From Plazaster borealis (taxonomy: Eukaryota > Echinodermata > Asteroidea > Forcipulatida > Labidiasteridae): a stretch of DNA of 64,000 nt. The position numbers and the translations under genes were made by a program. The notes beneath the pieces were generated by a model that did no database searches, was not told the DNA's origin, and was given only the letters and a program-made list of their open reading frames with translations. Each line of letters begins with the position of its first letter. The first letter of the stretch is position 1. The stretch spans positions 3,379,001-3,443,000 of the forward strand of contig CM037475.1 of assembly GCA_021014325.1 (NCBI GenBank), read 5' to 3'. This document shows, in pieces, positions 5,182 to 20,789 of this stretch.

Positions 5182-5451
5182 AGTAGTAGGAACAATGGGG
5201 GTTCTGGACCACCTTGCTTTGGGGTATATACAAATAGAGCACATGGGGTTTGCTCCCAGCTTTTTTGATAGGGCTCGCCCCGCTCTCTTGGTGGGCTGCT
5301 GGTTCTAGACCACTTTTGGGTTGGGGTATATATACAAATAGAGCACATGGGGTTCTACTAAATTTTCGTATACGAAAATTAGGTTTTAATAGGGCTCGCC
5401 CCGCTCTCTTGGCGGGCTCGACCCACAGCCAGCGACTTTCAACCTTAACGC
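5182..5451 (+). repeat. Polinton left terminal inverted repeat
   Basis: It is nearly identical to the inverted 20,520-20,789. Inside, a module of about 110 bp is repeated twice: a GGGGTATATACAAATAGAG stretch followed by AGGGCTCGCCCCGCTCTC. A TTTTCGTATACGAAAA palindrome separates the two in both ends. The TATATACA stretches could be promoter elements, but nothing else supports that. Confidence 0.9.
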
Positions 5452-5609
5452 TTCAACTTTCGTCTACGAAGGTTGAACACGATGGAGTGTAGCACGGTAT
5501 ACACAATGAGTGAACCCAACTGTAGACGTTTACGTTTGTGAATAACTGGGTGGAGGTTCGTTAAGTTTGCTACCACGGCTGAATTTAAAACTGGCAAAGC
5601 AACCGCACT

Positions 5610-6916: not shown

Positions 6917-6918
6917 AA

Positions 6919-7013
6919 CTAATCTTTTGTCTACGAAAGATTGTTAATGCGGTTATACCAAACAAAGCTTATAGCTTCAACACAGCTAATCTTTTGCTTG
7001 CAAAAGATTAATT
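6919..7013. repeat. Two ATCTTTTG-type palindromes
   Basis: A CTTTTGTCTACGAAAG palindrome sits just upstream of the minor-capsid-like start (about 6,920-6,942) and an ATCTTTTGCTTGCAAAAGAT palindrome lies at about 6,988-7,008. The second supplies the last codons and stop region of the next gene. Both belong to the palindrome family that recurs throughout this element. Confidence 0.8.
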
Positions 7014-7685
7014 TCAAGTACTGCAGTCATAGAGATAGGATTGTCACGCATATCCTCACCATATTCATCTAACACGAGAAAGTTTAGTTTATATATGTGT
7101 CCTGTTTTAAGTTTTTTGTACATAGGGTAAGCAAGGTTAACGTTTACACTGCTTTCAGATTTGAACGGGGTTATGGTTAGCAGCGACGAGGGGGCGCCAT
7201 CAATAGTATTAGAAGCCGCATTAAGTTGATTGAGGTGTATAGAAACCAGGTTAGGGGTATGGAACCTTGAGGGTCTAATTCCATCTACTCTTCCTTGGAA
7301 CCAATGACCGTCAAAAGATTAGAGAGAATGCCCAATAGTGAACACATTGCATCATCAAATTTAAAAACATAGAAAAACTCCTGACATTGATACTGACAAA
7401 CCCCGTTGTTTTGTTCATTTGGAGTACTATTTGGGGTATATTTGCTTTGAAAAACTGTTGTATATCTTCAAAGGTGTACATTCCTCGAACAACTTTAATC
7501 GAGGTATAACTAAGATTATTATTACTGTCAAACTTAAGATCAACAGTAGAGTCAACATCAAGAGTGTTAGTTTTTTTAAAATGCAACTCTCTTAGGGCAA
7601 CACAGAGTTTACCATTTACATTGTTAATTGCGGGTTGGAGGAGCGGCGCTTCTCTCTTTTGAATATTGGTTTGTGTAACAAACAT
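6985..7685 (-). pseudogene. Minor capsid (penton-like) candidate 2, decayed duplicate
   Basis: The N-terminus (MFVTQTNIQ...) and the layout (GKLCVALREL, then GMYTFEDIQQFF) parallel candidate 1, so the two are tandem duplicates. The open frame stops at 7,311. Similar downstream sequence continues in other frames to about 6,985, where a palindrome replaces the natural end. Divergence between the copies is high, so the duplication is old. More than one frameshift is present. Confidence 0.5.
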
Positions 7686-7710
7686 AGCGAACTTTGCAAA
7701 TAATCTTTTG

Positions 7711-7751
7711 AACTTATACGAGTATAACTTAAACTTTGCAAGCAAAGTTTG
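7711..7751. repeat. Two adjacent palindromes between divergent genes
   Basis: A near-palindrome of the ACTTATACGAGTATAA type lies at 7,711-7,730 and AAACTTTGCAAGCAAAGTTT follows at 7,732-7,751. They occupy the gap between the start of the minus-strand minor-capsid-like gene and the plus-strand gene at 7,759. They could serve as divergent promoter elements or simply be inserted repeats. Confidence 0.7.
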
Positions 7752-7758
7752 TGCAGTT

Positions 7759-8406
7759 ATGTCTAACCAAGCTTATAGCTTTAACACAGATGCATCTTAC
7801 CAAACAGGTGGGGTATACTCCGCAAAATCTCAACTCGTATTGCAAAATGTTACAATACAGGTTGATACGGGGGCGGCGAGCTTTGACACCGTCTTTCCGG
7901 ATATATTGTCGGCGGAGCGGTATAGGCTGCCACACGTACAAAGTGATGATGTAGTGGACACGTGGAGCTCAAACCCGATGAAATTTTGGCAAAATAAGAT
8001 TAACTTTGCAGTGTGGTGTGCTACCACAGGTTGCGGTGTCTCTGCAGAAGACCATCTTAGCTCTAAAGTCCCGATGGTGCGATCAGTCTACCGCTTTCAC
8101 GTATACTACCAGGTGCGAAGGATTCTTGAAGGGATGCAGGTGCCACTCCCACAGGATGACACTTGGGATGCCTTTGATACCCCATACAACCAGAGGGTAT
8201 ATGAGCAAATTTGCGCGGAGTTTGGTGTCTCACCGCACACCGACTGGCGGCAGAGCATCGACCAAAATAGTGGTCTTGGAACGCCGTATCATTGGTGGAA
8301 AGGTTCAGTGCTCTCTATTAAAGAAGTGAGCAACGATTTGGTTGCTAGTGGGGTCTTAACCCCAGCTTCGGTGTTTCGTCGAACGACTATAGAAAAGACC
8401 GCATGA
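7759..8406 (+). CDS. Conserved Polinton protein, N-terminal part (virion-protein candidate)
   Basis: The start is the first in-frame ATG after the palindromes (MSNQAYSF...). The protein is 215 residues with no signal peptide or membrane segment. It contains an aromatic-rich core (SSNPMKFWQNKINFAVW, YRFHVYYQVRRIL). Its TGA overlaps the ATG of the next gene (ATGA at 8,403-8,406). In relatives I associate with this family the two parts look like one protein, so either a frameshift or a translational coupling explains the split. The function is unknown to me; location beside capsid genes suggests a virion role. Confidence 0.7.
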   Translation: MSNQAYSFNTDASYQTGGVYSAKSQLVLQNVTIQVDTGAASFDTVFPDILSAERYRLPHVQSDDVVDTWSSNPMKFWQNKINFAVWCATTGCGVSAEDHLSSKVPMVRSVYRFHVYYQVRRILEGMQVPLPQDDTWDAFDTPYNQRVYEQICAEFGVSPHTDWRQSIDQNSGLGTPYHWWKGSVLSIKEVSNDLVASGVLTPASVFRRTTIEKTA

Positions 8407-9104
8407 GCTTTGGTGATAGACCAGCCACGTTCAGCGTCGACTACATCGGTCAGGGGCCAGAAGGAGACCAAGCATGGACAACATTTGTTCTCGACAAGTC
8501 GGAGGGCTTTACCCAACCTGGGGTTGAAAGAATCAACGACTCTATCCGAACATACGTGTGGGCTATCCTAGGCGCACAGGCGCAGATTCGCTCGAGTATT
8601 ATTGGCACCGGTGCCGCATTTGACACCCAGAAACAGTTCTTAGCGAATGTTGAGGATGCAGTCTCAAGCCCTGTAGATCTCCCGAGTGCGGTGGCACGCT
8701 ACCAAGACATGCTTCGATACGCCCGCTCTAAGGTTGACTATGTATTCGGAATTGGTTTGTATATGGCTCCCAGCAACATGGAGTTGCAGATTGGAACTAT
8801 TCAGGACTACAACAACGAGATTGTGATCGCGGAGCAGGGGCAAAATTTGGGCTTTAACAATGGTATAAATGCAGTTGTCGAGAATTTGTTACCTGTAAAG
8901 GATATGGAGGGGCCTCCTGCAAGGCCAGCACACCTAGCTCAAACTCCGGAAGTTAGTTTGATGGGACCGGTTTTGGCACAGCCTGATATCGACGTAGATG
9001 AAAGACAAACTTTCGTAGACGAAAGTTTAGCGCACTATGATGGGCGAACTGCACTTGTTGTTGGTGGCGTTGCTCTTGGTCTCGGTTGGCTCGCTCTACG
9101 CTAA
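8403..9104 (+). CDS. Conserved Polinton protein, C-terminal part with tail anchor
   Basis: This 233-residue frame overlaps the preceding stop by four bases (ATGA). It contains a segment GFTQPGVERINDSIRTYVW and ends with a hydrophobic helix (LVVGGVALGLGWLAL), consistent with a membrane tail. Residues TFVDESL near the C-terminus are encoded by an ACTTTCGTAGACGAAAGT palindrome at 9,008-9,029, so a repeat has been absorbed in frame. Stop is followed at once by three more palindromes. Confidence 0.7.
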   Translation: MSFGDRPATFSVDYIGQGPEGDQAWTTFVLDKSEGFTQPGVERINDSIRTYVWAILGAQAQIRSSIIGTGAAFDTQKQFLANVEDAVSSPVDLPSAVARYQDMLRYARSKVDYVFGIGLYMAPSNMELQIGTIQDYNNEIVIAEQGQNLGFNNGINAVVENLLPVKDMEGPPARPAHLAQTPEVSLMGPVLAQPDIDVDERQTFVDESLAHYDGRTALVVGGVALGLGWLALR

Positions 9105-9162
9105 AACTTTTGTCTACAAAAAACTTTTGTCTACAAAAAACTTTTGTCTACAAAAGTTTATC
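9104..9162. repeat. Triple AACTTTTGTCTACAAAA palindrome run
   Basis: Three head-to-tail copies of AACTTTTGTCTACAAAA fill the gap between the convergent genes ending at 9,104 and 9,161. The last copy is a complete palindrome ending AAAAGTTTA. Hairpins here would sit at the 3' ends of both transcripts, so a terminator or 3'-processing role is conceivable but unproven. Confidence 0.85.
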
Positions 9163-10087
9163 ATTTATAAAAGATTAAAGTTAACAGTACACCGCCAATG
9201 GCAACAATTATTGCCCATAGGTTTCCCGCGAGCCAGCCAGCAGTTTTACTCAAGAGGTTGAGGAGCCACGATATAATGCCTCCGATGATGCCCGGTAGTG
9301 CGGCTGCAGCCTTTCCAGCTAATTGGGCTAGAAGGCGCCCGAGAGCTTGCAAATGTTTTTTCGCCCACTCTTTTACCCCATCTTTACTTGCGGGGGGCGT
9401 GGGAGGTGTTGGCGGTGTAACCCCGCCAGCTGGCCCACCAGTCAAGGCAAGAACCAGAGTGCTGATGGCAAAGCCCAGTGCAGTGATAATGGTGGCTATG
9501 GTCACACCCTGCTCGCGGAACAGGGTCCGTAGCCGATCGGCCAGAGATTTGTTTTTATCTAGAACGCTAGATATGGTCTCACGAATTTGGCGGAACTGTG
9601 ACCGAAGTTGTTGGTTGAGGACATCAACGCTGTCTCGAGCCGCTGCGAGATCATCTTCGGCTTTTGTAATTTCACGTTCGATTTGGTCCTCTCGCTCAGT
9701 TGTCCCGGGTTGCTTAAGCTCTTCGCGATAGCCCTCGATTAGCTGCTGGAGAGAAACTACTTTGCTCTCTTGCACCGCTTTTGTGGCACGCAAAGTTTTC
9801 AGGGCTTTGTCAAGCCCTAGAATCTCTCTCATAGGCAAAAGATTTTCTTCCTCAGTAGGCGGCTTAGATGACATACTAATAACTAAATCATCTAAAACAT
9901 TAACTGTCTGATCTAGTACATCACCATCTGCTTGTGTTGCATTTTGTGCTTTATCAGCAACCTTTTCTAACTCGCGAAGGGTAGGTCGAGAATGACGATG
10001 CAGTGTACTGTCGTACCCAGGCAGGTTGAGAAAATCTCGAATAGCTCTGGAGCCCCCAGAGCCAAAACTTTGGGCAATAGTACCCAA
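9161..10087 (-). CDS. Polinton coiled-coil membrane protein
   Basis: The intact 308-residue frame starts MGTIAQSFGSGG. Residues about 95-195 are heptad-rich and charged, predicted coiled coil. Then come hydrophobic segments at about 198-217 (IATIITALGFAISTLVLAL), a proline-rich hinge (TPPTPPTPP) and a strongly hydrophobic C-terminal third with two or three membrane-spanning stretches. Proteins of this shape are recurrent in animal Polintons. A membrane or entry-related role would be a guess. It lies just downstream of, and in line with, the broken gene at 10,119-10,453. Confidence 0.75.
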   Translation of the reverse strand: MGTIAQSFGSGGSRAIRDFLNLPGYDSTLHRHSRPTLRELEKVADKAQNATQADGDVLDQTVNVLDDLVISMSSKPPTEEENLLPMREILGLDKALKTLRATKAVQESKVVSLQQLIEGYREELKQPGTTEREDQIEREITKAEDDLAAARDSVDVLNQQLRSQFRQIRETISSVLDKNKSLADRLRTLFREQGVTIATIITALGFAISTLVLALTGGPAGGVTPPTPPTPPASKDGVKEWAKKHLQALGRLLAQLAGKAAAALPGIIGGIISWLLNLLSKTAGWLAGNLWAIIVAIGGVLLTLIFYK

Positions 10088-10118
10088 TCCTAAAAACTTT
10101 TAGGGCCTTTAGTAGCGC

Positions 10119-10453
10119 TCATCCGAACCTTTTATCACCTTCTACCCAGTAAAGTGTTTTACCATCTTCGCCGACCTGAAACCGTTTGTATTCTATGATC
10201 GTAGGTTGAGGGCCATTGTTTAGACCTATCTCCTCATAGAAAGCATTTACTAAACGGTCTCGCTGTTCTCGCAACTCGTCTGTACGGATGTCGTCGCGCG
10301 CTTGGTTGATGCGGTCGCCGTATTCATTAGGCGATAGCCCATCTAAGGGTGCCCCGATAGGAGGTTCAGGGAAATAAAACTAGTTTCTTCTTCGACTTCT
10401 GGTTGTTTTTCGGGTGCATCAAAATCATTTATTTCAAAGCCACCTTCTGCCAT
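10119..10453 (-). pseudogene. Small acidic Polinton protein, frameshifted
   Basis: It starts at ATG 10,453 (MAEGGFEINDF...), acidic at the N-terminus. The starting frame runs into a stop near 10,345, while a well-formed frame continues in another register (SPNEYGDRINQARDD ... GKTLYWVEGDKRFG) to a TGA at 10,119. One frameshift near 10,370 is inferred. It would be about 110 residues. I do not recognise a function. It precedes the coiled-coil membrane protein by 31 bases on the same strand. Confidence 0.55.
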
Positions 10454-10530
10454 ATTGAATACAAAGGTTGGCTTTACTTATATTGAACACTCGCCAAGGT
10501 TTAATAGACAAAAGATAAAGTTTGGTTTGA

Positions 10531-11836
10531 ATGGCATCGTCAAAGTACGGACGCAAACTGAATCCTCTTAGAAGCCTGCGGGATCCACTCGGGATCAAAG
10601 GCATACGGCAGAGCGTGGTTGTAACCAACAACCCCTCCACTATCGACCAAAATCAGCAGCTCTTGGTCCGCTTTCCCAACCTTGGCGCCCAGGATGTGAT
10701 TGTTCCTGGAACAGCCCGCCTCGCATTTACCATCGCCCTCACCTCGACCGACGACAATCGAACAGTGGTTCAAAACCTTGGCCAAGCCGTTGTGAAGAAA
10801 AAGACAATCAGGATCAGTGGTAATGAGGTCATGTCTATAGATGACAGCGATGTTATCGGCTGCTACACCGACCTTTGGAAAACGTTGGGAGAGCGCCGGT
10901 CTCAGGTCTACCAGGGTATTGATGTGGCGGAAGACGCTAACATGCTTAAACTGAGGGTGGGCGCCGGAGATGGTGATAGTTCTACGGCGCAAGACAAGGC
11001 TGTTGCAGATGCATACAGCAACAGATTTAGCATTCCACTAGACTTTGAACTGTTGGAGAGCCACATGCCGTTCTTCCAGTCAGGCCTTGGTGACCGATTG
11101 AGTACGAGCTTACCTTTAATGACTACAGCCGCGTTATAATGGCAACAGGTGATACAGATGCTAGCTACGTCATCGACAACATCTCTCTCGAGTTTGAAAT
11201 TATGAGCGAGCCAAACTTAGCCCGAATGATTCGCAACCAGTATACTGCGCGAGTTGCCATCTTGTATGACCGCATTTTGCGCCACCGAAAGGTCACCCTC
11301 AACAAGAGTGATACGCTGTGGAACGTCAATCTTAATATTCCAGCCCGAAGCTTTAAGGGAATACTCATGCTCTTCGAGGATGCTGGAGCGGCGACCGCGT
11401 TTAACCGAAATACAGAATCGTTCTATAACCCCAAGATCGAAAAAGTTGAGGTCATAGTCGAGGGAAGCCAAACCAGTTGTATGCCCAGGGTATGCGCGGG
11501 TACCAACAGTGGGATGAAGTTCGAAAGTACTTCGCTAGCAGCCCTTCAACCAAGCGCCACCCCACGTCTGCAATGGTCACCAAAGACTTAGCATTAGCTG
11601 ATGTAACGGTAGGAGAGTATTTGACAACAAAGTACGGCCTATGGCTGGACTTGAGAAGCAACGATGATGACTCACTGCACGGCAGCGGCAGGCGCATAGA
11701 AAATGCAAGTGAGGGGGTCACAGTCCAGATCACCAAAAAGGCAGAAACGGCGGGCACATTGAACATGTATTTGTATGTTATCATGGATGCTCAGCTCAAC
11801 ATCGAAAATGGTCGATATATCAGTGCGCTCTACTAA
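10531..11836 (+). pseudogene. MCP: Major capsid protein (double jelly-roll type), two frameshifts
   Basis: Three consecutive open segments (10,531-11,139; 11,139-11,591; 11,477-11,836) lie in three different frames, yet together cover the length of a Polinton/adintovirus hexon-like capsid protein (about 435 residues). Breaks are near 11,098 and near 11,465. Recognisable segments include SFKGILMLFEDAG, GMRGYQQWDEVRKYF and a C-terminal DLRSNDDDSLHGSGRR block, the last characteristic of the group. It would form the trimeric shell subunit of a virion. Start ATG at 10,531 follows a spacer of about 75 bases from the divergent gene. As written it cannot make full-length capsid. Confidence 0.8.
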
Positions 11837-11841
11837 ACCAA

Positions 11842-12533
11842 ACTTATCTTTTGCAGGCAAAAGATTGTTTTCGTCAACGAAAGTTCAAAGTAAAACTTTC
11901 GTACACGAAAGTTTAGACAAAAGTAAAAACTTATACGAGGATAAGTTTTTACCCCACTCGGCCATCATCTGTGGCCAGACTGGCTGTGGGAAAACAGTCT
12001 TTATCTTAAACCTTCTCGAAGATCACTACTGCGGCGAATTTTCGCACATCGTTATACTCTGCCCCACAATTCGTTGGAACAAAACGTACCACGAGCGATC
12101 CTGGGTGTGGACAGACCCAGAGGTCTATATCGTCGACCCTGGCGATCAGCTTCAAAAGTGGTTGCGAGCTTTTACTCGATTTTTGCTGGCGAGCTGACAT
12201 TGTACATCATCGACGACTGCTCAGCTAGTAAAGCTCTGACCAAAAAGAAAGACATGCTGTCTGAGCTTGCGTTCTCGGGGCGCCACGCCTCTCAATCTGT
12301 GTGGGTTTTGACGCAAAAGTATAACTCGGTTCTTAAAGATCTCCGCGAGCAGACTAAGTGGATAGGGCTCTTCCACTGCAAGGACAGGGACTCTTTTGAA
12401 GATTGCCTGCGAGAAAACGACGTTGTCCCGACGAGAGGAGCGAGATGCGCTTAGACAGCAGCTATCTAAAGCTAAACACGCTAAGCTTATACTAAAGACT
12501 GCTCAGCCGGTTGCTTATCAGTTGTTAACATAG
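11842..12533 (+). pseudogene. ATP: DNA packaging ATPase (FtsK/HerA type), frameshifted
   Basis: A Walker A motif GQTGCGKT lies in one frame near 11,980, and a Walker B LYIIDDC in another near 12,205. This is followed by an SGRHASQSVWVLTQKY sensor region and LFHCKDRDSFEDCLREND. Breaks are near 12,172 and 12,430, and the tail ends at a TAG at 12,531. These are hallmarks of the A32-like genome packaging ATPase of Polintons. The N-terminus is unclear: no good ATG precedes the Walker A motif, and the upstream codons come from three palindromes (SSTKV, KTFVHESL, NLYEDKFL). The last 60 codons are duplicated as a tandem repeat downstream. Confidence 0.8.
11845..11951. repeat. Cluster of three different palindromes between MCP and ATPase
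   Basis: In order there are an ATCTTTTGCAGGCAAAAGAT palindrome (about 11,848-11,867), ACTTTCGTACACGAAAGT (about 11,895-11,912) and AACTTATACGAGGATAAGTT (about 11,928-11,949). Three sequence types with the same size and layout sit side by side, and all are read through in the ATPase frame. Confidence 0.85.
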
Positions 12534-12740
12534 CTTAATAGCTTGCTAAACTAAAGCTAAACACGCTAAGCTTATACTAAAGACTGCTCAGCCGGTTGCT
12601 TATCAGTTGTTAACATAGCTTAATAGCTTGCTAAACTAAAGCTAAACACGCTAAGCTTATACTAAAGACTGCTCAGCCGGTTGCTTATCAGTTGTTAACA
12701 TAATCTTTTGTAGACAAAAGATTAGCTTAATAGCTTGCTA
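12466..12740. repeat. 85-bp tandem repeat made of the ATPase gene tail, three copies
   Basis: Copies begin at about 12,466, 12,551 and 12,636 with CTAAAGCTAAACACGCTAAG. Each contains the last coding bases and stop of the ATPase plus the AGCTTAATAGCTTGCTAAA linker. The copies are virtually identical, so the expansion is recent. The third copy is interrupted by an ATCTTTTGTAGACAAAAGAT palindrome at about 12,704-12,723. Confidence 0.9.
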
Positions 12741-12752
12741 AACTAAAGTTCT

Positions 12753-12860
12753 ATGTGGGAGCAAACACAGCTAGCCATACAAACTATACATCTGGCAGTA
12801 GTTCTTGTGATGTTTGTCAAGTATGTTAGACTCATGCGCATAAACTTACACAGAGTATAA
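12753..12860 (+). CDS. Small membrane protein, 35 residues
   Basis: The short frame MWEQTQLAIQ... contains a single hydrophobic helix (IHLAVVLVMFV) and a basic C-terminus (KYVRLMRINLHR), the shape of a single-pass membrane peptide. It lies between the ATPase and the next gene in the same direction. Small hydrophobic frames occur at this place in other Polintons. Coding status is likely but not proven. Confidence 0.45.
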   Translation: MWEQTQLAIQTIHLAVVLVMFVKYVRLMRINLHRV

Positions 12861-12898
12861 GTTTGATCTCAAAAGTAATCTTTTGCTCACAGAAGATT

Positions 12899-13483
12899 AT
12901 GGATTGTGATGATTTGATCAACCAATTGTTGCAAGAGGTTCCCGATGAAAGCACCGATACCACCGTCTCGACGCTAAACAAAACTTTTGTAGACAAAAGT
13001 TTGAGCTGCACCTCGTCTACAAAAGATTTGCCAGCAAAAGATTACAAAAGTTTGGATCGTTTGCAAGAACAAAAACGGACCCGGCTGGCGGCAATTGTGG
13101 CTGGCGGCACTGCCCAAAAATACATAGGAACCCGACTAACCCTTGCACAACTTGATGTGATGAGTGATGACGAGATTTCTAAGCACTATAGCCGCTATGA
13201 GGCACGACTAGGGGCCTCAATGACAAAAACTCTCGGGGCGTCTGCGCTGCAGATGTATGCACTAGCGGCTAGCACATTTCTACCAATTCCACCCGAAAAT
13301 AAGCCTCAGCTCGTCATAGACCTCGAGGAGGACCCCTTTGTCGGACATGCGCTGACGACAGCCTGCTGCGAGCTGTATTATCGCTATGGTATGTACTTAG
13401 CCCCGCTTACAGCAGCGATGACAACTGCTAAGCACTGTCAATTTAAAGACAAAACTTATACGAGTATAAGTAAAACTTCGTAA
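12899..13483 (+). CDS. Conserved Polinton protein of unknown function
   Basis: The start MDCDDLINQLL at 12,899 is preferred to an earlier in-frame ATG-less extension; the ATG is the last part of an ATCTTTTG-type palindrome. Residues about 25-55 are largely encoded by palindromes (KTFVDKSL, SSTKDLPAKD). The conserved-looking part starts after residue 60 (RLAAIVAGGTAQKYIG) and runs through LTLAQLDVMSDDEI to EDPFVGHALTTACCEL and a short hydrophobic region. A palindrome encodes the C-terminus (KTYTSISKT). Recurrent in invertebrate Polintons; no known function. Confidence 0.65.
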   Translation: MDCDDLINQLLQEVPDESTDTTVSTLNKTFVDKSLSCTSSTKDLPAKDYKSLDRLQEQKRTRLAAIVAGGTAQKYIGTRLTLAQLDVMSDDEISKHYSRYEARLGASMTKTLGASALQMYALAASTFLPIPPENKPQLVIDLEEDPFVGHALTTACCELYYRYGMYLAPLTAAMTTAKHCQFKDKTYTSISKTS

Positions 13484-13516
13484 AAACTTCGTAAAACTTT
13501 CGTACACGAAAGTTTA
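13453..13516. repeat. Palindromes ACTTATACGAGTATAAGT and ACTTTCGTACACGAAAGT
   Basis: The first lies at the end of the preceding frame (about 13,456-13,473). The second fills the gap just before the next ATG at 13,518 (about 13,496-13,513). They belong to the element-wide family. Confidence 0.8.
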
Positions 13517-13517
13517 G

Positions 13518-13994
13518 ATGACAGAAAACTTGGAAACGACATCGACAGAAGCAGCACAAGCTCTGGAGATGACAGCAGCGCAAGACCTAGAGACGACATC
13601 GACGCAGTTAAAAGTCAAGAGAGTGACTAATAAAGATTCACAAAAAGTTGAGGCTGGCCGCAAAGGTGCAGCAGCTAGAAAAGCAAAACAAGAAGCGCTG
13701 AAAGAGCAGCTGCGAAAGGCCAAACAGAGTCTCAAACAAACTTTCGTAAACGAAAGTTTTTCTGAAGATAATCTTAATCCTTCATCTACAAAAGACCGCG
13801 AACATAAAAGTGAAATCTCATCGCAATCAGAAACTAATCTTTTGCCTGCAAAAGATAATCTTTTGCAGGCAAAAGATTGTTTGCTCCTTGCAGGGGCTGT
13901 TATAGCTGTTGGAGCTGTGGTATATGCTAAGTTTTCGTATACGCCTGCAAAACAATTACCAAATGTATCTCAAAATCAAAGACAAACATATTAG
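13518..13994 (+). CDS. Low-complexity charged protein with C-terminal membrane helix
   Basis: It has 158 residues. The N-terminus is Thr/Glu/Ala-rich, then comes a basic stretch (EAGRKGAAARKAKQEAL) that could bind nucleic acid, then a hydrophobic helix (LLLAGAVIAVGAVVYA) near the C-terminus. Two palindromes are absorbed in frame: QTFVNESF at about residue 74 and a doubled LLPAKDNLLQAKD at about 110. The tail-anchored basic layout may suit a core or scaffold protein, but no family is recognised. Confidence 0.55.
   Translation: MTENLETTSTEAAQALEMTAAQDLETTSTQLKVKRVTNKDSQKVEAGRKGAAARKAKQEALKEQLRKAKQSLKQTFVNESFSEDNLNPSSTKDREHKSEISSQSETNLLPAKDNLLQAKDCLLLAGAVIAVGAVVYAKFSYTPAKQLPNVSQNQRQTY
13834..13878. 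repeat. Double ATCTTTTGC...GCAAAAGAT palindrome inside a gene
   Basis: Two palindromes of the ATCTTTTGCCTGCAAAAGAT type lie back to back and are translated in frame as LLPAKDNLLQAKD. This is among the clearest examples of a repeat accepted inside coding sequence. Confidence 0.85.
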
Positions 13995-14050
13995 ACAAAC
14001 AAACTAATCCTCATTATATGCAATAATAATCTCCTACTTGCATAACAAAA

Positions 14051-14287
14051 ATGACTACCCCAGTACTGATGGTAAACAGCTTGCTAATTTGGTGTACCAC
14101 TCCGCCGTAGTAAGTGGACTTGCCGTGGGATACGCTACTCTTGGTAAAAAATCATAAAGGTGTTACGCCAAAGTTAGACTTTGCGCCGTATGATGTTGGC
14201 ATGGTCATACTAGATGTTGGCCTAGCTATGGCCACTAAAGACATGCTTGTCAAGCAGGGGATACTCCCTGCAGACATATTAAAGTAA
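14051..14287 (+). pseudogene. Small Polinton membrane protein, frameshifted
   Basis: An ATG at 14,051 is out of frame with the following conserved-looking segment GKQLANLVYHSAVVSGLAVG, which itself breaks after YATLGKK at about 14,148. The end DMLVKQGILPADILK reads in yet another frame to a TAA at 14,287. Small hydrophobic proteins of this kind are recurrent in Polintons. Two frameshifts make it non-functional as written. Confidence 0.55.
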
Positions 14288-14366
14288 ATATGTATAAGTT
14301 TTCTCTTTTGAATACAAAAGATTATACAAATATAAGTTAAACTAAACTTATATAAATATAAGTTTG

Positions 14367-14813
14367 ATGGCTTCTATTGTAATGCTTGTTGGCGGAGCGG
14401 TCGTGAACGCACTTGCGTTCTCTGGGTCAAATTTTCGGTTCTCGATGATGCGTGATCCAGGTGCCGATGAAGAGCGAAAACGACATGACAAGGCTGTAGA
14501 ACAACTTCAAGCTGCGCAGTCTGAATGGTCACGCAAGAGGGCCGAACGCCTAGACTGGATTAATGAAGAGCTTCGCCGCCAAGGACATGCCGTGCACACT
14601 TTCCGCAATGTTGATGAAGCTATTCGCCAGTACAATCTTATAAACTTTTCTACAGAAAAGTTTGGCAGTGATTCAATGGCCCCCACGCTAGAAGAACCAA
14701 AACCCAAACTCTCAGATTTCTACTTGCCGTCCCCAGAGCAACGTGATCGCGAAATTGCTTTCGTTATCATGGGGCTTGGAGTTACTTCCTTCGCAGCCTA
14801 TAAACTTTCGTAG
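14367..14813 (+). CDS. Polinton protein with terminal hydrophobic segments
   Basis: The start MASIVMLVGG at 14,367 follows an ACTTATATAAATATAAGT palindrome. A hydrophobic N-terminus (about 1-18) is followed by a charged helical region (EERKRHDKAVEQLQAAQSEW, about 30-75), then LSDFYLPSPEQRDREIAFV and a C-terminal hydrophobic helix. Residues NFSTEKF come from a palindrome at 14,641-14,662, and the last codons (YKLS) from another at 14,802-14,823. I associate this layout with a family common in animal Polintons but without assigned function. Confidence 0.65.
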   Translation: MASIVMLVGGAVVNALAFSGSNFRFSMMRDPGADEERKRHDKAVEQLQAAQSEWSRKRAERLDWINEELRRQGHAVHTFRNVDEAIRQYNLINFSTEKFGSDSMAPTLEEPKPKLSDFYLPSPEQRDREIAFVIMGLGVTSFAAYKLS

Positions 14814-15003
14814 ACGAAAGTTTGGATTGTTAAGTAAACTAATCTTTTGCCTGAAAAAGATTATCTTTTTCTTGCACAGAATAGAATGATTAGGTGTAGT
14901 TTAGTTATTTTTGCAATCACAAACTAATCTTTGCAGGCAAAAGATTTTTTTCTACAGATAATCTTTTGATTGTAAAAAAACTTTTCTTCAGAAAAGTTTA
15001 GTT
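14801..15003. repeat. Palindrome-rich spacer before the integrase gene
   Basis: It contains ACTTTCGTAGACGAAAGT (about 14,804-14,821), ATCTTTTGCCTGAAAAAGAT (about 14,841-14,860), a shortened AATCTTTGCAGGCAAAAGATT (about 14,923-14,944), a half ATCTTTTGATTGTAAAA and ACTTTTCTTCAGAAAAGT (about 14,979-14,998). Five family members within 200 bp make up nearly all of the spacer. Confidence 0.8.
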
Positions 15004-15026
15004 AGACTTTGCAGGCGTAAACTTAT

Positions 15027-16055
15027 ATGGATACTAAACTGTCTGCATTGTACTACAGCCCCCAAGGATACTGGAAGGGACTTGCGGCCATACAAAAACT
15101 AGCCGAGGCTGCAAAAGTCACTCAAGATGTGAGTAAAGATTGGCTCAAGAGACAAGCTATATGGCAGATATATCTCCCATCCCCTCGCCATGTGCCTCGC
15201 CCAAAATTTGATATTTCAGTGCCTAATGAAGTCCACCAAGCTGACCTATTGTTTCTTCCACACGATCGCCTGCCCAGGGGCCGAAAGATTTACAAATACG
15301 CCCTGACTGTGGTTGATGTTGCCAGCCGCTACAAAGAAGCTGAACCACTGACTTCAAAGGAATCCACCGAGGTGGCTACTGCTTTGTCCCGCATTTACAA
15401 GCGGGGACCTTTAAAGTGGCCGAAGGTGCTGCAGGTTGACCCTGGGCGTGAGTTTATGGGCTCCATATCCCAAACTCTGGAGAAACATGGTGTCAAAGTC
15501 CGACGGGGTGAAAAAGATTTGCATCGAGCGCAGGGCATCGTGGAAAGATTCAACCGAACTCTAGCAGAAAAGCTCTTTGGGCATCAGTATGCGGTAGAGC
15601 TGCGTCTCCCAGATGATGAGAGGTCAACTGAGTGGGTAGCACGACTTCCCGCCGTTGTCTTAGCTCTGAACACAGAGGTTACCAGATTGACGGAAAAAAG
15701 TACCTCAGAAGCAATCAATGCAAAATCGGTAAAACAAAAGCACTCTACCATTGAAGAACGACCTGTTTGTCTCAACGAGCAAAAGCTAACCTCGGGCGTG
15801 GGCGTTCGGTACCTCTACCAGCCAGGTGAGCTAGAAGGTGGGCGTCGTCGCGCAACTGACCCAGTATGGTCCCTCCGGGTGCACCGGCTTGGGCGTTCAG
15901 TCACTAAACCCGGAGAGCCTGTTCTTTATTATCTTATGAAAGATCGTGGGGTACCAGCTCGTGGGTTTGTACGAGAAGAGCTACTTGTGGTGCCTCCCAA
16001 CACCCAGGTGCCACCTGTTAAACTTTTGCTTAAACTTTCGTCTACGAAAGTTTAG
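15027..16055 (+). CDS. INT: Retrovirus-like integrase (Polinton INT)
   Basis: The 342-residue frame is uninterrupted. The N-terminal helix-rich part (GYWKGLAAIQKLAEAAKV) precedes the catalytic core with the D,D,E set: HQADLLF (about residue 73), VDPGREF (about 138) and QGIVERFNR (about 175). A C-terminal chromo/SH3-like region (about 265-330) ends in LVVPP. The enzyme would join element ends to target DNA and make the short target duplication. The C-terminal LLKLSSTKV and stop come from a palindrome at about 16,031-16,054, so the original end may have been a few codons earlier or later. Length and motifs fit a functional protein. Confidence 0.9.
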   Translation: MDTKLSALYYSPQGYWKGLAAIQKLAEAAKVTQDVSKDWLKRQAIWQIYLPSPRHVPRPKFDISVPNEVHQADLLFLPHDRLPRGRKIYKYALTVVDVASRYKEAEPLTSKESTEVATALSRIYKRGPLKWPKVLQVDPGREFMGSISQTLEKHGVKVRRGEKDLHRAQGIVERFNRTLAEKLFGHQYAVELRLPDDERSTEWVARLPAVVLALNTEVTRLTEKSTSEAINAKSVKQKHSTIEERPVCLNEQKLTSGVGVRYLYQPGELEGGRRRATDPVWSLRVHRLGRSVTKPGEPVLYYLMKDRGVPARGFVREELLVVPPNTQVPPVKLLLKLSSTKV

Positions 16056-16190
16056 GCGACAATCTCGTTGATAAACTAAACTAATCAAACTTTTCTACAG
16101 AAAAGTTTGCAAGCAAAAGATAATCTTTGCAGGCAAAAGATTAGTTTTTATGCAGGCAAAAGATAATCTTTTGCAGGCATAATATCTTTG
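16030..16190. repeat. Palindrome cluster between integrase and polymerase genes
   Basis: ACTTTCGTCTACGAAAGT, ACTTTTCTACAGAAAAGT and two or three overlapping ATCTTTTGCAGGC-type palindromes occupy this gap between convergent genes. Together with the groups at 9,104 and 14,801 this shows the repeats are concentrated at gene ends. Confidence 0.85.
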
Positions 16191-16294
16191 TGCCCATAGG
16201 CTAGTGTGGTGACACCGTCTTCAGCTATCCACCTCTTTGTGTCCAAGGGGAGAGTGATACCTTGTTCAGACGCTGACCGTAAATTCTATGTCTC

Positions 16295-19200
16295 TCAGAA
16301 CGCAGCACATCCATCCCGTGGCGGAAGGTCTTTTTGTGATAGAGCCTCTTTATACTGCTCATGTCGAATTTGTTTCTTCACAACAGACTTTTTCACACCT
16401 TTGGCTTTTTTGATGTTATTCCCGCCAGCCTCGAAGATAGAGTACATCTTAGGCCGCAGCCCCACATACTCGGCGATGGGGCGCCCGGCGCACTCGTCCT
16501 TCATCTTTCCCAATACCTTCTTGTTTACCGTGTTGTGGAGGTAGTGCTCTTTGGGGTAGTCAGATGTGTCGTAGAGGTTCTGGTCTTCGGCTATGTCTTT
16601 GTACACATCCTCGGTTTGGATATCAAGGAGGAGAGAGTCTGTGTCTGTGTAAAGGAGCTGACACCGATCACCATACCGAGCCTTTATCTGATTATAGTAG
16701 AAGTCGTACATAAGGTGCTTCGAAAGGTCGAGTATGCTCATACCCACGTAGGCGGGCCGGTTGAGTACCAGGCGGCTCTTATGAACCTGGATCGCCGCGA
16801 GGTTGTCATCAAAGATGTTTGCCCGAGCAAAGGCCGGGCTGGCAATAAGTCTCCTTAGCTTATCTTCTTCATCACTGCGCACCAGCTTAACGTCGACCCG
16901 CTTGCGTAGGTTCTCCATCGTTTTCCCAAATACACTATTGTTCATGAGTTTGTAGAGGTTCTTTTCGAAGTCGCTGGTTGCCTCCTTCCGGTGCTCCGTG
17001 TTCATCCGGATGTAGGGTTCCATCCAAGGGCTCTGCTCAAAGCGAAGAGCCCGGTGGATCTTCTTCAAGCGCATGCCGAGAGAGAGGTACAGCTGTAGGT
17101 TGCGATAGTGTAGCAAATATCGTTCTTTATCACGGAGATTGGGTACCAGCTTTTCAACCTCTGTTGAAACTAATCTTTTGCCTGAAAACTTTTCTGTAGA
17201 AATAATCTTTTGCTTGCAAAAGATTAGGTTGTGCTGATACTCGGACATCCACTCTCTCTGAACGACCATGCGCTCTGGCGCTAACGGATAGGCGTTGTGT
17301 GCGTCGTGGAGCTCTACAGGGTACTCTAAGTCTACCTCCAAGATGTAGCCCTCTGGGCTGTCTGCCGGATGCTCCGTTAAAACTTTTGTAGACAACAGCT
17401 CCTCCACCCACTCAAAGCCGCCTGTAGGCAGCGACTGGCTCATTGCCCACCCATATAGGTTATTAGCATCCAGGTAAGAAATGTACCTGTTCGGCTCGGA
17501 GGGGTTAAAGCCCTTAACCAAAGGGTTGTTAGCTCTCGCAAAGCGCTTAGATACCATGGAGATACCACCTCGCATCCCCTTCTCGATGAAAAGGTGCTGG
17601 TCATAGTCTGTGAGCAGTTTGAGTTCTACACCCGTCTTTTTGAGCAACGCGTCCCAAGAGAGGCCAGGACTGGTGTAGTAATGTGCGGGGTCCAAGCCGT
17701 ACTGCCGCATGCAGGTCTTCCGGAAAGTCTCGAAGACATCTGCCAAAAGGAGCACATCTGTGCGGTTGTAGAGGTCGTGGTAGTCTCCCATAGTGTGGCA
17801 TCTAAAGGTCTCCCACACCTTTTGTGCATGAACGTAGTCGGCCTCGCTAATGTACTCGTCTTTCAGCTTGCTGTAGAAGGCTTCCTTCGGAGGGAGACCT
17901 GGCTCTGCAAACCTTTCCCAAGAGTCCATGTACTCGTACGGGTAGACGCCCTTGCGCAACAAAAGATTGCGCCTTTCTTTACATGGCTCGTACTGGCCCG
18001 TTATTTGGAAAGCCTCGGGCAGGTTGGCTGCTACTAACTCGTCAAGAGAGGACGGCAAGAACTGGACGCTGTCGATAAATCGGAGCTGACCGATGGAGAA
18101 GCTAATGTATTTCTCGGTGTTGTTCGGGATGCAAGAAATCTTACCCTCTACCTTGGAAATAGCCTGCATCAGGAGGTGAGAATCGTAGCCCCGCAAATTG
18201 TGGAAGACCACAGGTATGGTTGTGGTTTTAGGGCTCAGGCGCAGCTTCAAGTTGCAAGCGTTGTGTGCAGCACCTCTGAATTTTCCAGTGATATGACAGT
18301 GGTCGCGGACAGTATCTCCCTCAAGTGGCTTCTCACACACGTGGCAGGTGGTGGCTGCCTTAAAGGCTCGCCGGTCATTAGCGGTCATCTTCATTGCTTT
18401 AGGGTTGGCTAGCACCTCCTTGATCTTTCGCTCCTCATACTGGATCGCTTTTAAGAAGTGCTCCGCCGCGTCGTGTCCACGGTATTCTACAGGTGTTTTT
18501 GTCCGTCCATCGCAGCGAACGACTACATAGCAATAGCCACAAGCCTCGTGGTGCTGCGTCTTCCGAGTGTTGCTCTTCGTGGGGTCCAGCTCGGGCCCCT
18601 CTACCTTTGTAGTTAGAGCCTCAAGGTCGGCGTAGATGATGAAAGGGGCGGGAAACTGCTTGTGGTGGTTTTGAAAGGTCAGCTTATTTTTTCCCTCTTC
18701 TGGCATCTCTACCCTCACCGCCGTCTGACCGATCCCACAACATTCAGGCTTGTGAGCTTCTAGGAGGTCTTCTCTCGAGTACCCATGGAGACATCTCTCA
18801 CAAAAGTGCGTACGCTCCCGGTGCTTGTTTTCTTGGTAGAGAAGACGGTTTAGGTTTTTGACCCAGGTGTAGTGAAACTTGCCTGCCTTCTCGATCAGCA
18901 AGAGGTTAATCCTGGGCATGTCCATGGGCTTTTTGCTTAGCCCGTGAACGATAACACCCTTATCCCAGCCAAATATGTTGATAGCTAGGTTGTTTTGTTT
19001 TTCAACCTTCAGGATCTGAGAGTAGGGAGTAGGAGCCTCGATCCCCGTGAAGTCTAGGCCATCATCAGTGGGATATTGGGAAGGCCTATCCGTGTGGGCT
19101 CTGGCGGGGAAGAGAGCAGACCGTAAGGACCATCTCAGGCAGTGATCATCATTGTTCTTCACGTTGATGACCGCCTTCTTGCTTTTCACCGCTGCGGGTA

Positions 19201-19723
19201 GTGGAATGTATGAGCCGCCTCTCAAGGGCTGGTACCGAGCAATGTCAAGCCACAGCATCTCTACGTGGTCAACCGTCCACCCCGAGCCTCTTTGAGTAAA
19301 TTTTTCAAGCGTCTCCTGGATGCGGGGAAAGGCCCTGTCTAGTGCATCATTAATATCGTTAGCCTGCAAAACAGACTCTTGTTTGTGGCGGAGCACGGGA
19401 TCTGTGTATTCTTCACTCTCATCAGGGTTGTCTTTCCGAAGTTGAAGCTTGAGAGCCAGCTGAAACTTAATACCGTTAAAAGCTTTAAGCTCTTCCTCAA
19501 GTTTTTGGTAAATCTGAGAGCGCACGTCGTCCAGAAAGGCTCTGGGGTCTGCGCTAAGGAGATGCCCTTTGGGCACAACCATCTGCCAACCCCGCAGATA
19601 TTTCCCGATCACCCGTGGGGTCTGCCTAAAGACTAGCTCATCCGTCTCTTTATATTCAAACTGCTCTAGAATCTCATTTTGGTAGTCTTGTACCGTTCTA
19701 AACGTTTTTGAAGTACTCGTCAT
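16295..19723 (-). CDS. PolB: Protein-primed family B DNA polymerase (Polinton PolB)
   Basis: The 1,142-residue frame starts MTSTSKTF. Exonuclease motifs are ExoI FIIYADLEAL (about residue 362), ExoII HNLRGYDSHL (about 508) and ExoIII YNRTDVLLLADV (about 655). Polymerase motifs are A at YLDANNLYGWAMS (about 752), B at NLYKLMNNSVFGKT (about 927) and C at LLYTDTDSLL (about 1,028). A CERC...H...C zinc cluster lies near 305-330, and a CHVC...VRDHCHITGKFRG endonuclease-VII-like cluster near 460-495. About 20 residues at 832-853 are encoded by palindromes and look inserted. The C-terminus ends abruptly at GCAAF; plausible continuation exists in another frame to about 16,200, so a terminal frameshift near 16,330 is inferred. 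Confidence 0.92.
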   Translation of the reverse strand: MTSTSKTFRTVQDYQNEILEQFEYKETDELVFRQTPRVIGKYLRGWQMVVPKGHLLSADPRAFLDDVRSQIYQKLEEELKAFNGIKFQLALKLQLRKDNPDESEEYTDPVLRHKQESVLQANDINDALDRAFPRIQETLEKFTQRGSGWTVDHVEMLWLDIARYQPLRGGSYIPLPAAVKSKKAVINVKNNDDHCLRWSLRSALFPARAHTDRPSQYPTDDGLDFTGIEAPTPYSQILKVEKQNNLAINIFGWDKGVIVHGLSKKPMDMPRINLLLIEKAGKFHYTWVKNLNRLLYQENKHRERTHFCERCLHGYSREDLLEAHKPECCGIGQTAVRVEMPEEGKNKLTFQNHHKQFPAPFIIYADLEALTTKVEGPELDPTKSNTRKTQHHEACGYCYVVVRCDGRTKTPVEYRGHDAAEHFLKAIQYEERKIKEVLANPKAMKMTANDRRAFKAATTCHVCEKPLEGDTVRDHCHITGKFRGAAHNACNLKLRLSPKTTTIPVVFHNLRGYDSHLLMQAISKVEGKISCIPNNTEKYISFSIGQLRFIDSVQFLPSSLDELVAANLPEAFQITGQYEPCKERRNLLLRKGVYPYEYMDSWERFAEPGLPPKEAFYSKLKDEYISEADYVHAQKVWETFRCHTMGDYHDLYNRTDVLLLADVFETFRKTCMRQYGLDPAHYYTSPGLSWDALLKKTGVELKLLTDYDQHLFIEKGMRGGISMVSKRFARANNPLVKGFNPSEPNRYISYLDANNLYGWAMSQSLPTGGFEWVEELLSTKVLTEHPADSPEGYILEVDLEYPVELHDAHNAYPLAPERMVVQREWMSEYQHNLIFCKQKIISTEKFSGKRLVSTEVEKLVPNLRDKERYLLHYRNLQLYLSLGMRLKKIHRALRFEQSPWMEPYIRMNTEHRKEATSDFEKNLYKLMNNSVFGKTMENLRKRVDVKLVRSDEEDKLRRLIASPAFARANIFDDNLAAIQVHKSRLVLNRPAYVGMSILDLSKHLMYDFYYNQIKARYGDRCQLLYTDTDSLLLDIQTEDVYKDIAEDQNLYDTSDYPKEHYLHNTVNKKVLGKMKDECAGRPIAEYVGLRPKMYSIFEAGGNNIKKAKGVKKSVVKKQIRHEQYKEALSQKDLPPRDGCAAF
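17165..17226. repeat. Palindromes inside the polymerase gene
   Basis: An ATCTTTTGCCTG half, an ACTTTTCTGTAGAAA near-palindrome and a complete ATCTTTTGCTTGCAAAAGAT follow one another within the polymerase frame without breaking it. The encoded segment separates two stretches that look contiguous in other Polinton polymerases as I know them. Confidence 0.75.
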
Positions 19724-19973
19724 TTATATTGGTTACAGTATAAGCTACGACGTATTTCTCTAATAGAGAGTCATTAACACACAAAACCCAACAGTAGAGG
19801 GCATGAGGTTTGCTGGTGATAGCATAACTTACAACACACATATCTCTAATTGAAGTGTTCATTTTACAAAACTTAGGGAATTTCCCATGCACATTGCGCA
19901 ATAAATTGGGGATTCCCCTGATGATAAAAACTATTTAGACATAAATGTATACCTAAGATATTCAATCTGCGAA
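19724..19973. other. Intergenic spacer between PolB and the zinc-ribbon gene
   Basis: About 250 bases with no convincing frame and, unusually for this element, no palindrome. It holds the divergent 5' ends of PolB (-) and the Cys-rich gene (+), so it is the probable site of both promoters. Confidence 0.4.
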
Positions 19974-20261
19974 ATGAAAGGACACAATGTTTGTGCTTGG
20001 GTTAAAGTTGGTGAAGTTGATCTTTGTAATAGGAGCTGCTGCGGTAAATATTGTAAGTACCACTTAGTAAAGATCCGTAAAGGCAGAAAGATTTCAATAC
20101 CCTGTAAATCTTGTGGTACTGGGGTTCAGAGTGAAATACAGCTATGTCGAAACTGTGGCCGAGATAAAATAAGACATAGGTACTTATCTCAAGAAAAATT
20201 ATCTAAACAACAGTTTTCGTTGGTGTTGTCACAGCTCTTAGCTCGTGTTCAACTTTTGTAG
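19974..20261 (+). CDS. Cysteine-rich zinc-ribbon-like Polinton protein
   Basis: The 95-residue frame starts MKGHNVCAWVKVG. It has a first Cys/His group (C...C..KYCKYH) and a second CKSCGTGV...LCRNCG group, two likely zinc sites, then a basic tail. The C-terminus and stop run into an ACTTTTGTAGACGAAAGT palindrome at about 20,251-20,268. Small zinc-binding proteins are common near Polinton ends; a DNA-binding or regulatory role is inferred only. Confidence 0.6.
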   Translation: MKGHNVCAWVKVGEVDLCNRSCCGKYCKYHLVKIRKGRKISIPCKSCGTGVQSEIQLCRNCGRDKIRHRYLSQEKLSKQQFSLVLSQLLARVQLL

Positions 20262-20268
20262 ACGAAAG

Positions 20269-20469
20269 TTATATCACAGCCTTTGTTCTGCGCTGTGCCG
20301 GGCAAATCTTTTTGTGCCTCCACAAGGAGAAGCTGCAGCTCAGCTCCCCACCACAATCCACACATATGTATTGCCGGGGTTCTTGTAAGCAAGGTGTCTT
20401 ACGGTTCTCCAGGTGTCTCTTCAGGTTGTAGTACCTCTTAAAAAATCGGTGGCACTTATCACACTCCAT
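20269..20469 (-). CDS. C2H2 zinc-finger protein beside the right TIR
   Basis: The 66-residue frame starts MECDKCHRFFKRYY. The first finger is C..C...(12)...H...., completed by the HLENRKTPC stretch. A second CVDCGGELSCSFSLWRH pattern follows. Its start lies just inside the right terminal repeat. The left terminal region carries the same ATGGAGTGT start at about 5,481 but then diverges and closes. A DNA-binding regulator is likely by family; target unknown. Confidence 0.6.
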   Translation of the reverse strand: MECDKCHRFFKRYYNLKRHLENRKTPCLQEPRQYICVDCGGELSCSFSLWRHKKICPAQRRTKAVI

Positions 20470-20519
20470 CGTGTATACAGGTGCGGTATATATGTCTAAT
20501 TGTATATACCAAATGAGGC

Positions 20520-20789
20520 GTTAAGGTTGGGAGTTGCTGGCTGTGGGTCGTGCCCGCCAAGAGAGCGGGGCGAGCCCTATTAAAACCTAATTTTCGTATA
20601 CGAAAATTTAGTAGAACCCCATGTGCTCTATTTGTATATATACCCCAACCCAAAAGTGGTCTAGAACCAGCAGCCCACCAAGAGAGCGGGGCGAGCCCTA
20701 TCAAAAAAGCTGGGAGCAAACCCCATGTGCTCTATTTGTATATACCCCAAAGCAAGGTGGTCCAGAACCCCCATTGTTCCTACTACTAC
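20520..20789 (-). repeat. Polinton right terminal inverted repeat
   Basis: It is the inverted counterpart of 5,182-5,451, with the same duplicated internal module and TTTTCGTATACGAAAA palindrome. It ends CCTACTACT next to ACATTCGACG, the resumed host sequence of duplication unit A. Confidence 0.9.

Follow-up and report, generated by a model that had tools for sequence, protein, structure and literature searches.

We describe here a family of 22-bp palindromes in a 64,000-nucleotide stretch of DNA from Plazaster borealis (Echinodermata; Asteroidea; Forcipulatida; Labidiasteridae), taken from contig CM037475.1 of the GenBank assembly GCA_021014325.1 (positions 3,379,001 to 3,443,000 of the forward strand); this whole stretch is referred to below as the window. 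The palindromes lie in a Polinton, a virus-like transposon, which occupies the interval 5182-20787 of the window. They form one family of fixed length, built of a 10-bp arm, a two-base centre and a second 10-bp arm, vary symmetrically, sit at gene ends, between genes and within reading frames, include one exact filled/empty site and are absent from the relatives that were fetched. Our preferred reading, to which we give an even chance of being right, is that they are small palindromic insertion cassettes spreading within the element, with arms kept matched at the DNA level. It is favoured because of the filled/empty pair at position 12702 and because the relatives are without the family; the gain of a copy at that site, the copying route and the selfish character of the spread are inferred.

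Abundance and confinement

An earlier note on this DNA, made from the sequence alone, had listed at least 25 palindromes of five types between positions 6919 and 20269. The palindromes are real and all five types are present. The comparison with shuffled sequence which that note had proposed gave 25 perfect inverted repeats in the element (stem of at least 8 bp, loop of 0-4), where 20 dinucleotide shuffles averaged 1.45 and never exceeded 5, and 22 inverted repeats with a two-base centre, where shuffles gave 0.3; a chance origin is rejected on these counts. The number given in the note fits roughly, depending on how a site is defined. When the choice of sites depends on nothing but the six outermost bases of either side, with one mismatch allowed per side, fixed spacing and no use of the inner arm, the element yields 24 (one of them, at 20195, is probably chance), the left flank one and the right flank 13. 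A threshold of 8 or more matching pairs out of 10 gives 26 sites, one of them a terminal-repeat copy, and their alignment has 22 distinct rows. A list of 35 sites, our own selection, also includes partial copies with 6-7 of 10 pairs. Three palindromes lie beyond the span first reported: one in each terminal inverted repeat (at 5360 and 20588) and one, at 5454, on the inner border of the left repeat.

Within the window the family is confined to the element, as had been claimed. The half-site RCRAAAGWTT occurs 44 times in the 15.6 kb of the element, not at all in the 5.2 kb of the left flank and twice in the 43.2 kb of the right flank. Inverted repeats with a two-base centre are above shuffles in the right flank as well (11 vs 0.8), none of them belonging to the Polinton family; they are A/T runs, pieces of other repeats and single unclassified ones.

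Symmetric variation

The inner arm, which plays no part in the outer-hexamer rule, provides a measure of pairing free of the selection of sites. Its four pairs are complementary in 22, 22, 21 and 23 of the 24 element sites, as against 3, 5, 7 and 7 of the 13 in the right flank, and all four are complementary at 18 of the 24 sites, while none of the 14 in both flanks reaches this. These 18 sites fall into five inner types, TCGT (6), TTGC (5), TTGT (3), TTCT (3) and ATAT (1), and not one of them has a self-complementary centre. The suggestion that structure is kept while sequence varies is thereby borne out. Spacing is fixed: pairs of outer hexamers number 24 at a gap of 10 and 0-11 at any other gap in the range 0 to 30. 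Paired changes in the stems, a further check proposed in the earlier note, were found in the 22-row alignment at 7 of the 10 pairs, with 30 cells changed on both sides against 9.0 in shuffles, and four of five covariation measures exceed all 500 shuffles. Two impressions gained by eye were not used, namely a wobble bias in imperfect stems, for which cases are few and mixed, and a strand bias of the two-base centre (A first on the sense strand), the coding strand being A-rich in part of the region.

A filled site with empty counterparts

The third copy of an 85-bp tandem repeat holds the palindrome AATCTTTTGTAGACAAAAGATT between AACAT and AGCTT. When the flanks of this palindrome are joined they equal copies 1 and 2 with 0 mismatches over 24 bp, so that the difference amounts to exactly 22 bp, with a duplication of 0-1 bp (one ambiguous base at most), i.e. 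without target duplication. The copy at 12702 stands isolated amid unrelated sequence. Gain of the palindrome in one repeat copy would be the simplest reading. The third 85-bp copy may be an assembly artefact. A second joined-flank match, with three mismatches (site 13836), lands in another palindrome and was not used.

Relatives of the element

Relatives were collected with a degenerate polymerase motif, which delivered six contigs (one from IMG/VR and five from bacterial or archaeal metagenome-assembled genomes), and with a profile scan, by which one more IMG/VR contig was added and the first one was represented by a longer piece. The eight loci (L001-L008) lie on seven contigs, L001 and L007 sharing one, and all are fragments of 3.1-15.5 kb. 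No family palindrome and two half-sites in total were found in them, and the family is therefore not supported as a general feature of Polintons. Absence from the relatives fetched, one part of what the earlier note had named as speaking against its proposal, was thus observed; another part, shuffled counts similar to those of the element, was not, the shuffled counts being far lower. Searches with single proteins returned no relatives in IMG/VR and none among phage records. The AAACTTTYGT-type pattern has no match in IMG/VR; six IMG/VR stretches with a ATCTTTTG-type pattern, with one match each and 0-3 half-sites, were read as chance.

The closest relative, L005, is 68% identical in the integrase and 61% in the homologue of g14, with polymerase identity of 42% in the first third and 58-65% thereafter. 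Its 5.1 kb contain no stem of at least 8 bp and no half-site. The alignment of the integrases stops at residue 334, before the palindrome; eight further residues follow here, palindrome-coded from residue 336, and two in L005. Between the stop codons of the integrase and polymerase genes there are 13 bp in L005 and 239 bp here. The polymerase stretch from YQ to TE measures 69 nt here and 32 nt in L005, across a frame break of the latter, and it varies in length among the other relatives. The palindromes here are extra sequence relative to L005, and, judged from the alignments, the polymerase insert may be a tolerated loop; the predicted polymerase structure, with a mean predicted local distance difference test (pLDDT) score of 42.5, is uninformative.

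Five of the loci (L002-L006) are contigs with Polinton-type DNA polymerase genes in GTDB bacterial and archaeal genomes, L005 also having an integrase gene; they are probably mis-binned eukaryotic elements. L007 carries two copies of CTGCACAACGTTGTGCAG at 6610-6795, with a third, different palindrome close by, and shows a modest excess of other palindromes (10 stems vs 2.0 in shuffles, maximum 6). It possibly has a small palindrome family of its own.

Placement relative to genes

The palindromes lie both at gene edges and in frame, in agreement with the earlier note. Among the 35 listed sites 12 are in reading frames, spread over seven genes and all three frames (6, 3 and 3), and 10 of these 12 are more than 10 codons from either gene end. 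In the packaging ATPase the Pox_A32 match begins at residue 53, directly after the palindrome-coded extension. Clusters of near-perfect sites have a median distance of 63 bp to a gene boundary, compared with 176 bp for random points (p 0.003), and 10 of the 17 clusters fall between genes, though intergenic DNA makes up 21% of the element. Three short junctions are palindrome over nearly their whole length (g5/g6, 55 of 56 bp; g9/g10, 32 of 34; g14/g15, 7 of 7), and all three convergent gaps contain palindromes.

Proposed origin

According to the preferred reading, a hairpin-capable cassette of 22 bp with an asymmetric two-base centre would have spread inside this Polinton lineage. Copies would enter as one unit without target duplication and persist where harm is small, i.e. 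at the start or stop of a gene, in intergenic spacers and in protein loops or terminal extensions; being stop-free in at least one frame, the cassette would be translatable. The arms would most likely be kept matched by one templating the other (template switching) on the single strands of protein-primed strand-displacement replication, and foldback with slippage would yield the partial tandem copies and might give rise to new ones at other places. Tandem arrays built from palindrome pieces and recurring composite blocks, detailed under local growth below, are counted as signs of such copying. A more far-reaching claim, which we put forward tentatively and hold to be rather doubtful, is that a 22-bp hairpin micro-element parasitises the Polinton: it would copy itself in protein-primed replication, have its arms matched by intrastrand templating, drift symmetrically and by now occupy gene junctions and translated segments, and would probably be among the smallest mobile DNA units.

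Several observations weigh against the cassette reading. A clean empty partner was found at one of 29 sites tested by joined-flank search in this window, and at that site a precise loss before further duplication needs about as many events as a gain. An insert of exactly 22 bp breaks the reading frame, and in-frame copies need other lengths or extra changes, such as the 21-bp period at 13835. Apart from the integrase, no hairpin-moving enzyme was recognised in a Pfam scan of 19 open reading frames (ORFs) of the element. The fifth covariation measure, further pair types, is 11 vs 10.0 and not above shuffles (136 of 500). L005 has just 5.1 kb and covers the polymerase, most of the integrase and g14 only, and the other relatives are fragments too. 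Three gaps are devoid of palindromes: the one between g6 and the major capsid protein (MCP) gene (656 bp, some of which may be coding), that between PolB and g14 (250 bp) and that between g1 and g2 (174 bp). Finally, 5 of 15 start codons have a site ending no more than 8 bp upstream (at 0-7 bp; null 0.68, p 0.0004), and 8 of 15 stop codons have a palindrome within 10 bp (null 1.76, p 0.0002), under a null which keeps the intergenic/coding split and uses 32 sites, array sites not being independent. This hugging of starts and stops exceeds what free insertion between genes predicts. It could reflect a function at gene junctions, or insertions having made the junctions, and the 13-bp gap between stops in L005 suits the latter.

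Alternative explanations

A function at gene junctions would mean that the palindromes are sites bound by a dimeric protein coded by the element, serving transcription control or DNA packaging, with the in-gene copies as tolerated extras. Besides the adjacency to starts and stops, the conservation of the outer core and the one-turn length of the arms are suited to a dimer, and candidate proteins exist: g15 has a C2H2 match of 1.3e-05, just under Pfam's cut-off, and g14 a weak zinc-ribbon match. We nevertheless regard this explanation as unlikely. A protein reading the conserved outer bases would not need symmetric inner bases, so that the inner positions, which vary but stay symmetric, speak against a simple sequence-specific binding site; the in-frame sites are, with two exceptions, remote from gene ends, and L005 has a homologue of g14 yet no sites.

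The palindromes of the convergent gaps and those near stop codons would also suit signals for transcript 3' ends, that is, RNA hairpins at which mRNAs are terminated or processed, as is the case in Mimiviridae and Marseilleviridae, and which would have spilled over into genes. All eight sites folded as RNA give a 9-bp stem with a 4-nt loop (-4.7 to -7.7 kcal/mol), and palindromes of Noumeavirus are described with a similar intergenic bias, 151 of 226 (PMC5413956). The tenth pair, next to the centre, speaks against this: although it falls in the loop in 8 of 8 folds, its bases are complementary at 23 of the 24 element sites, compared with 7 of 13 in the right flank, and in 7 of the 22 rows both of them have changed. 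Because this pair covaries although absent from the RNA folds, an RNA hairpin as the sole constraint is weakened; the constraint acts on DNA and not solely on RNA, which speaks against a purely RNA-level role. In addition, about a third of the listed sites are inside reading frames, sites precede the starts of g4 and g11 without a nearby upstream stop, hairpins of Mimivirus are reported as not conserved in sequence (PMC4402537), and none of the 19 ORFs scanned matches RNase III or poly(A) polymerase. Transcript-end signals are an improbable explanation of the family.

The pattern at the tenth pair fits arms templating one another in DNA, as in the preferred reading, or a hairpin or cruciform formed by the DNA. 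If a structure of the latter kind were under selection because the element needs it to replicate or be packaged, without being mobile itself, this would account for complementarity that reaches the centre pair, for the length fixed at 22 bp and for the copies in both terminal repeats. This explanation would not lead one to expect that the family is missing from the fetched relatives, which may or may not replicate, or that one copy is missing from the otherwise identical neighbours of the 12702 repeat, and we consider it quite improbable.

Local growth only, in which slippage and the duplication of adjacent DNA multiplied a small number of ancestral palindromes and none was inserted at a distance, would explain why four of the 10 tandem arrays of the element are built from palindrome pieces (17 bp x3.1, 11 bp x3, 21 bp x2 and 20 bp x3.5) and why composite blocks longer than one palindrome are shared (41 nt at 13831 and 14836, 88% alike; 30 nt at 16092 and, inverted, at 17173, 93% alike), but it is very improbable, as many copies share little outside the 22 bp and the copy at 12702 is alone in unrelated sequence.

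Comparison with known palindromic repeats

Rickettsia palindromic elements (RPE) are bacterial, have a length of about 100-150 bp and have counterparts in Wolbachia. The likeness to RPE drawn in the earlier note is apt with regard to the precise presence or absence of one 22-bp unit and to the absence of the family from the fetched relatives. RPE are described, with reference to the work of Ogata and Claverie, as palindromic insertions in protein-coding genes that are tolerated by the proteins (PMC6649704), and in both cases a palindromic unit is in frame in many unrelated genes, here at 12 of 35 sites in seven genes. Differences are the size of 22 bp, the carrier, which is a eukaryotic virus-like transposon, the several symmetric types and the positions at start and stop codons; moreover, the arm identity of RPE is said to decay with time (PMC6649704), whereas the arms here stay matched. 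In behaviour the Polinton palindromes resemble RPE and organellar selfish palindromes, but they differ in size and carrier and are not placed in those families.

Yeast GC clusters and fungal double-hairpin elements are similar short palindromes of organelles, and miniature inverted-repeat transposable elements (MITEs) are characterized by terminal repeats and target duplications. The unit described here differs from a MITE in being a single 22-bp palindrome, and no target-site duplication was seen at 12702 (0-1 bp; one site). Small repeats, MITEs among them, are reported to invade the genomes of pithovirus and Pandoravirus (PMC10664404, PMC4495683). The palindromes of Volvox and sponge organelles are presented as short, selfish and lineage-specific, with the copying route open (PMC2670323, PMC2800124); the likeness is that of a short family of selfish type, the difference that these are organellar, mostly non-coding and not in a virus-like element. 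In bacteria, repetitive extragenic palindromic (REP) sequences are given as palindromic repeats of 20-40 bp in high copy number, moved by REP-associated tyrosine transposases (RAYT; PMC3733652). The likeness is that of short high-copy palindromes; REP are extragenic by name and tagged, and no Pfam match to a RAYT transposase was seen among 19 ORFs of the element.

Under the hairpin rule of giant viruses most genes have a palindrome at the 3' end, and cleavage and polyadenylation take place within the hairpin. Palindromes of Noumeavirus and Mimivirus, both large DNA viruses, are reported to concentrate between genes and at stop codons (PMC5413956, PMC4402537). Here too palindromes are frequent between genes and near stop codons (8 of 15), but they also adjoin starts and often lie in genes, and they belong to one sequence family of fixed length, whereas the Mimivirus hairpins are reported as not conserved in sequence (PMC4402537). 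For nematomorph mitochondria perfect inverted repeats in coding sequence are described, with arms kept identical and template switching proposed; they reach 284 bp and are not presented in that account as one dispersed family (PMC6649704). Among the literature matches listed, as far as titles and the beginnings of abstracts tell, none describes such a palindrome family in a Polinton or another virus-like transposon.

Coding palindromic insertions (Rickettsia) and selfish palindromes (organelles) are already known. If the cassette reading is true, this 15-kb Polinton, compact and holding some two dozen copies along with symmetric variants, half-copies and a filled/empty site, would make the spread and the arm matching of a bare 22-bp palindrome directly testable, and it would be a case of palindromes supplying stop codons, gene spacers and protein tails to a compact virus-like genome.

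Features of the carrier element

The element is identified as a Polinton by genes for a family B DNA polymerase and a retroviral-type integrase (Pfam matches DNA_pol_B_2, 5.6e-15, and rve, 1.5e-10), and by terminal inverted repeats of the (AGT)2/(ACT)2 type with a target duplication. The terminal arms of 275 bp (5181-5455 and 20514-20788) are 98% complementary, and ACATT flanks both outer ends, the visible target duplication being five bases. Vertebrate Mavericks are reported with (AGT)2//(ACT)2 ends and a six-base target duplication (PMC8097293); the AGTAGT...ACTACT ends here match these, and the visible duplication is one base shorter. A piece of the packaging ATPase matches Pox_A32 (1.2e-05) and the capsid match is weak (Capsid_N at 0.08), both genes being interrupted by frame breaks, which make some gene edges there approximate. 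The element also codes for small zinc-finger-like proteins. Coordinates are summarized in Table 1.

Table 1. Ends, marker genes, repeats and palindrome sites of the Polinton (positions in the window)
Feature	Position	Strand	Remarks
Left terminal inverted repeat	5182..5455	+	starts AGTAGT; holds palindrome 5360-5381; based on inverted-repeat arms, sequence read directly
Near-perfect palindrome CAACTTTCGT CT ACGAAGGTTG	5454..5475	.	inner edge of left terminal repeat
Palindrome AATCTTTTGT CT ACGAAAGATT, one T-G mismatch	6921..6942	.	4 bp upstream of g2 start
Perfect palindrome AATCTTTTGC TT GCAAAAGATT	6988..7009	.	intergenic
Two imperfect or short palindromes	7710..7751	.	between the divergent genes g3 and g4, at 7 bp from the start of g4
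Perfect palindrome, in frame in g5 (TFVDESL)	9007..9028	.	
17-bp tandem partial copies, perfect palindrome at end	9103..9159	.	fills 55 of 56 bp of convergent gap g5/g6
Palindrome row, in frame (SFAGKR...TFVHESL...NLYEDKF)	11845..11948	.	packaging ATPase N-terminal extension
85-bp tandem repeat	12466..12742	+	three copies, identical save 22-bp palindrome in third
Filled site AATCTTTTGT AG ACAAAAGATT	12702..12723	.	same place empty in copies 1 and 2
Imperfect palindrome	12877..12898	.	immediately 5' of g9 ATG
Perfect palindrome (TFVDKSL), then half-sites, in frame in g9	12981..13053	.	
Two palindromes and 11-bp partial tandem copies	13452..13515	.	g9/g10 junction
Perfect palindrome, in frame in g10 (TFVNESF)	13738..13759	.	
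Two palindromes, 21-bp period, in frame in g10 (NLLPAKDNLLQAKD)	13836..13878	.	
Perfect palindrome AAACTTATAT AA ATATAAGTTT	14344..14365	.	one base pair before the ATG of g11
Perfect palindrome, in frame in g11 (NFSTEKF)	14642..14663	.	
Perfect palindrome enclosing g11 stop codon	14802..14823	.	
Palindromes between g11 and integrase gene	14841..14999	.	
Integrase gene (rve)	15027..16055	+	Pfam rve 1.5e-10; final codons are palindrome 16032-16053
Palindrome array	16087..16186	.	convergent gap integrase/PolB, 100 of 239 bp
DNA polymerase B gene (PolB)	16295..19723	-	Pfam DNA_pol_B_2 5.6e-15; palindromic block 17166-17226 read in frame
Perfect palindrome, in frame in PolB (NLIFCKQKII)	17204..17225	.	
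Palindrome, 8 of 10 pairs	20250..20271	.	encloses the stops of g14 and g15, which are convergent
Right terminal inverted repeat	20514..20787	-	ends ACTACT; holds palindrome 20588-20609

Other observations

The capsid and ATPase genes (10531-12531) are frame-broken although the terminal repeats are 98% alike; this copy of the Polinton may be defective, or the assembly may hold small errors there. Inspection of 5216-5420 by eye showed an internal near-duplication within the terminal repeat, with a palindrome in the inner copy and none in the outer one.

Outside the element, a longer host repeat, centred on the palindrome AAAACTTCTTGCAAGAAGTTTT or one closely similar to it, occurs in three copies at 36819, 60420 and 62336; it is unrelated to the Polinton family save for a loose likeness. 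A satellite of 273 copies of the 19-bp unit TGTCCGGTATTCCCTACAC extends from 31465 to 36656, where it keeps a frame of 1767 codons open and coincides with strong local GC and AT skew.

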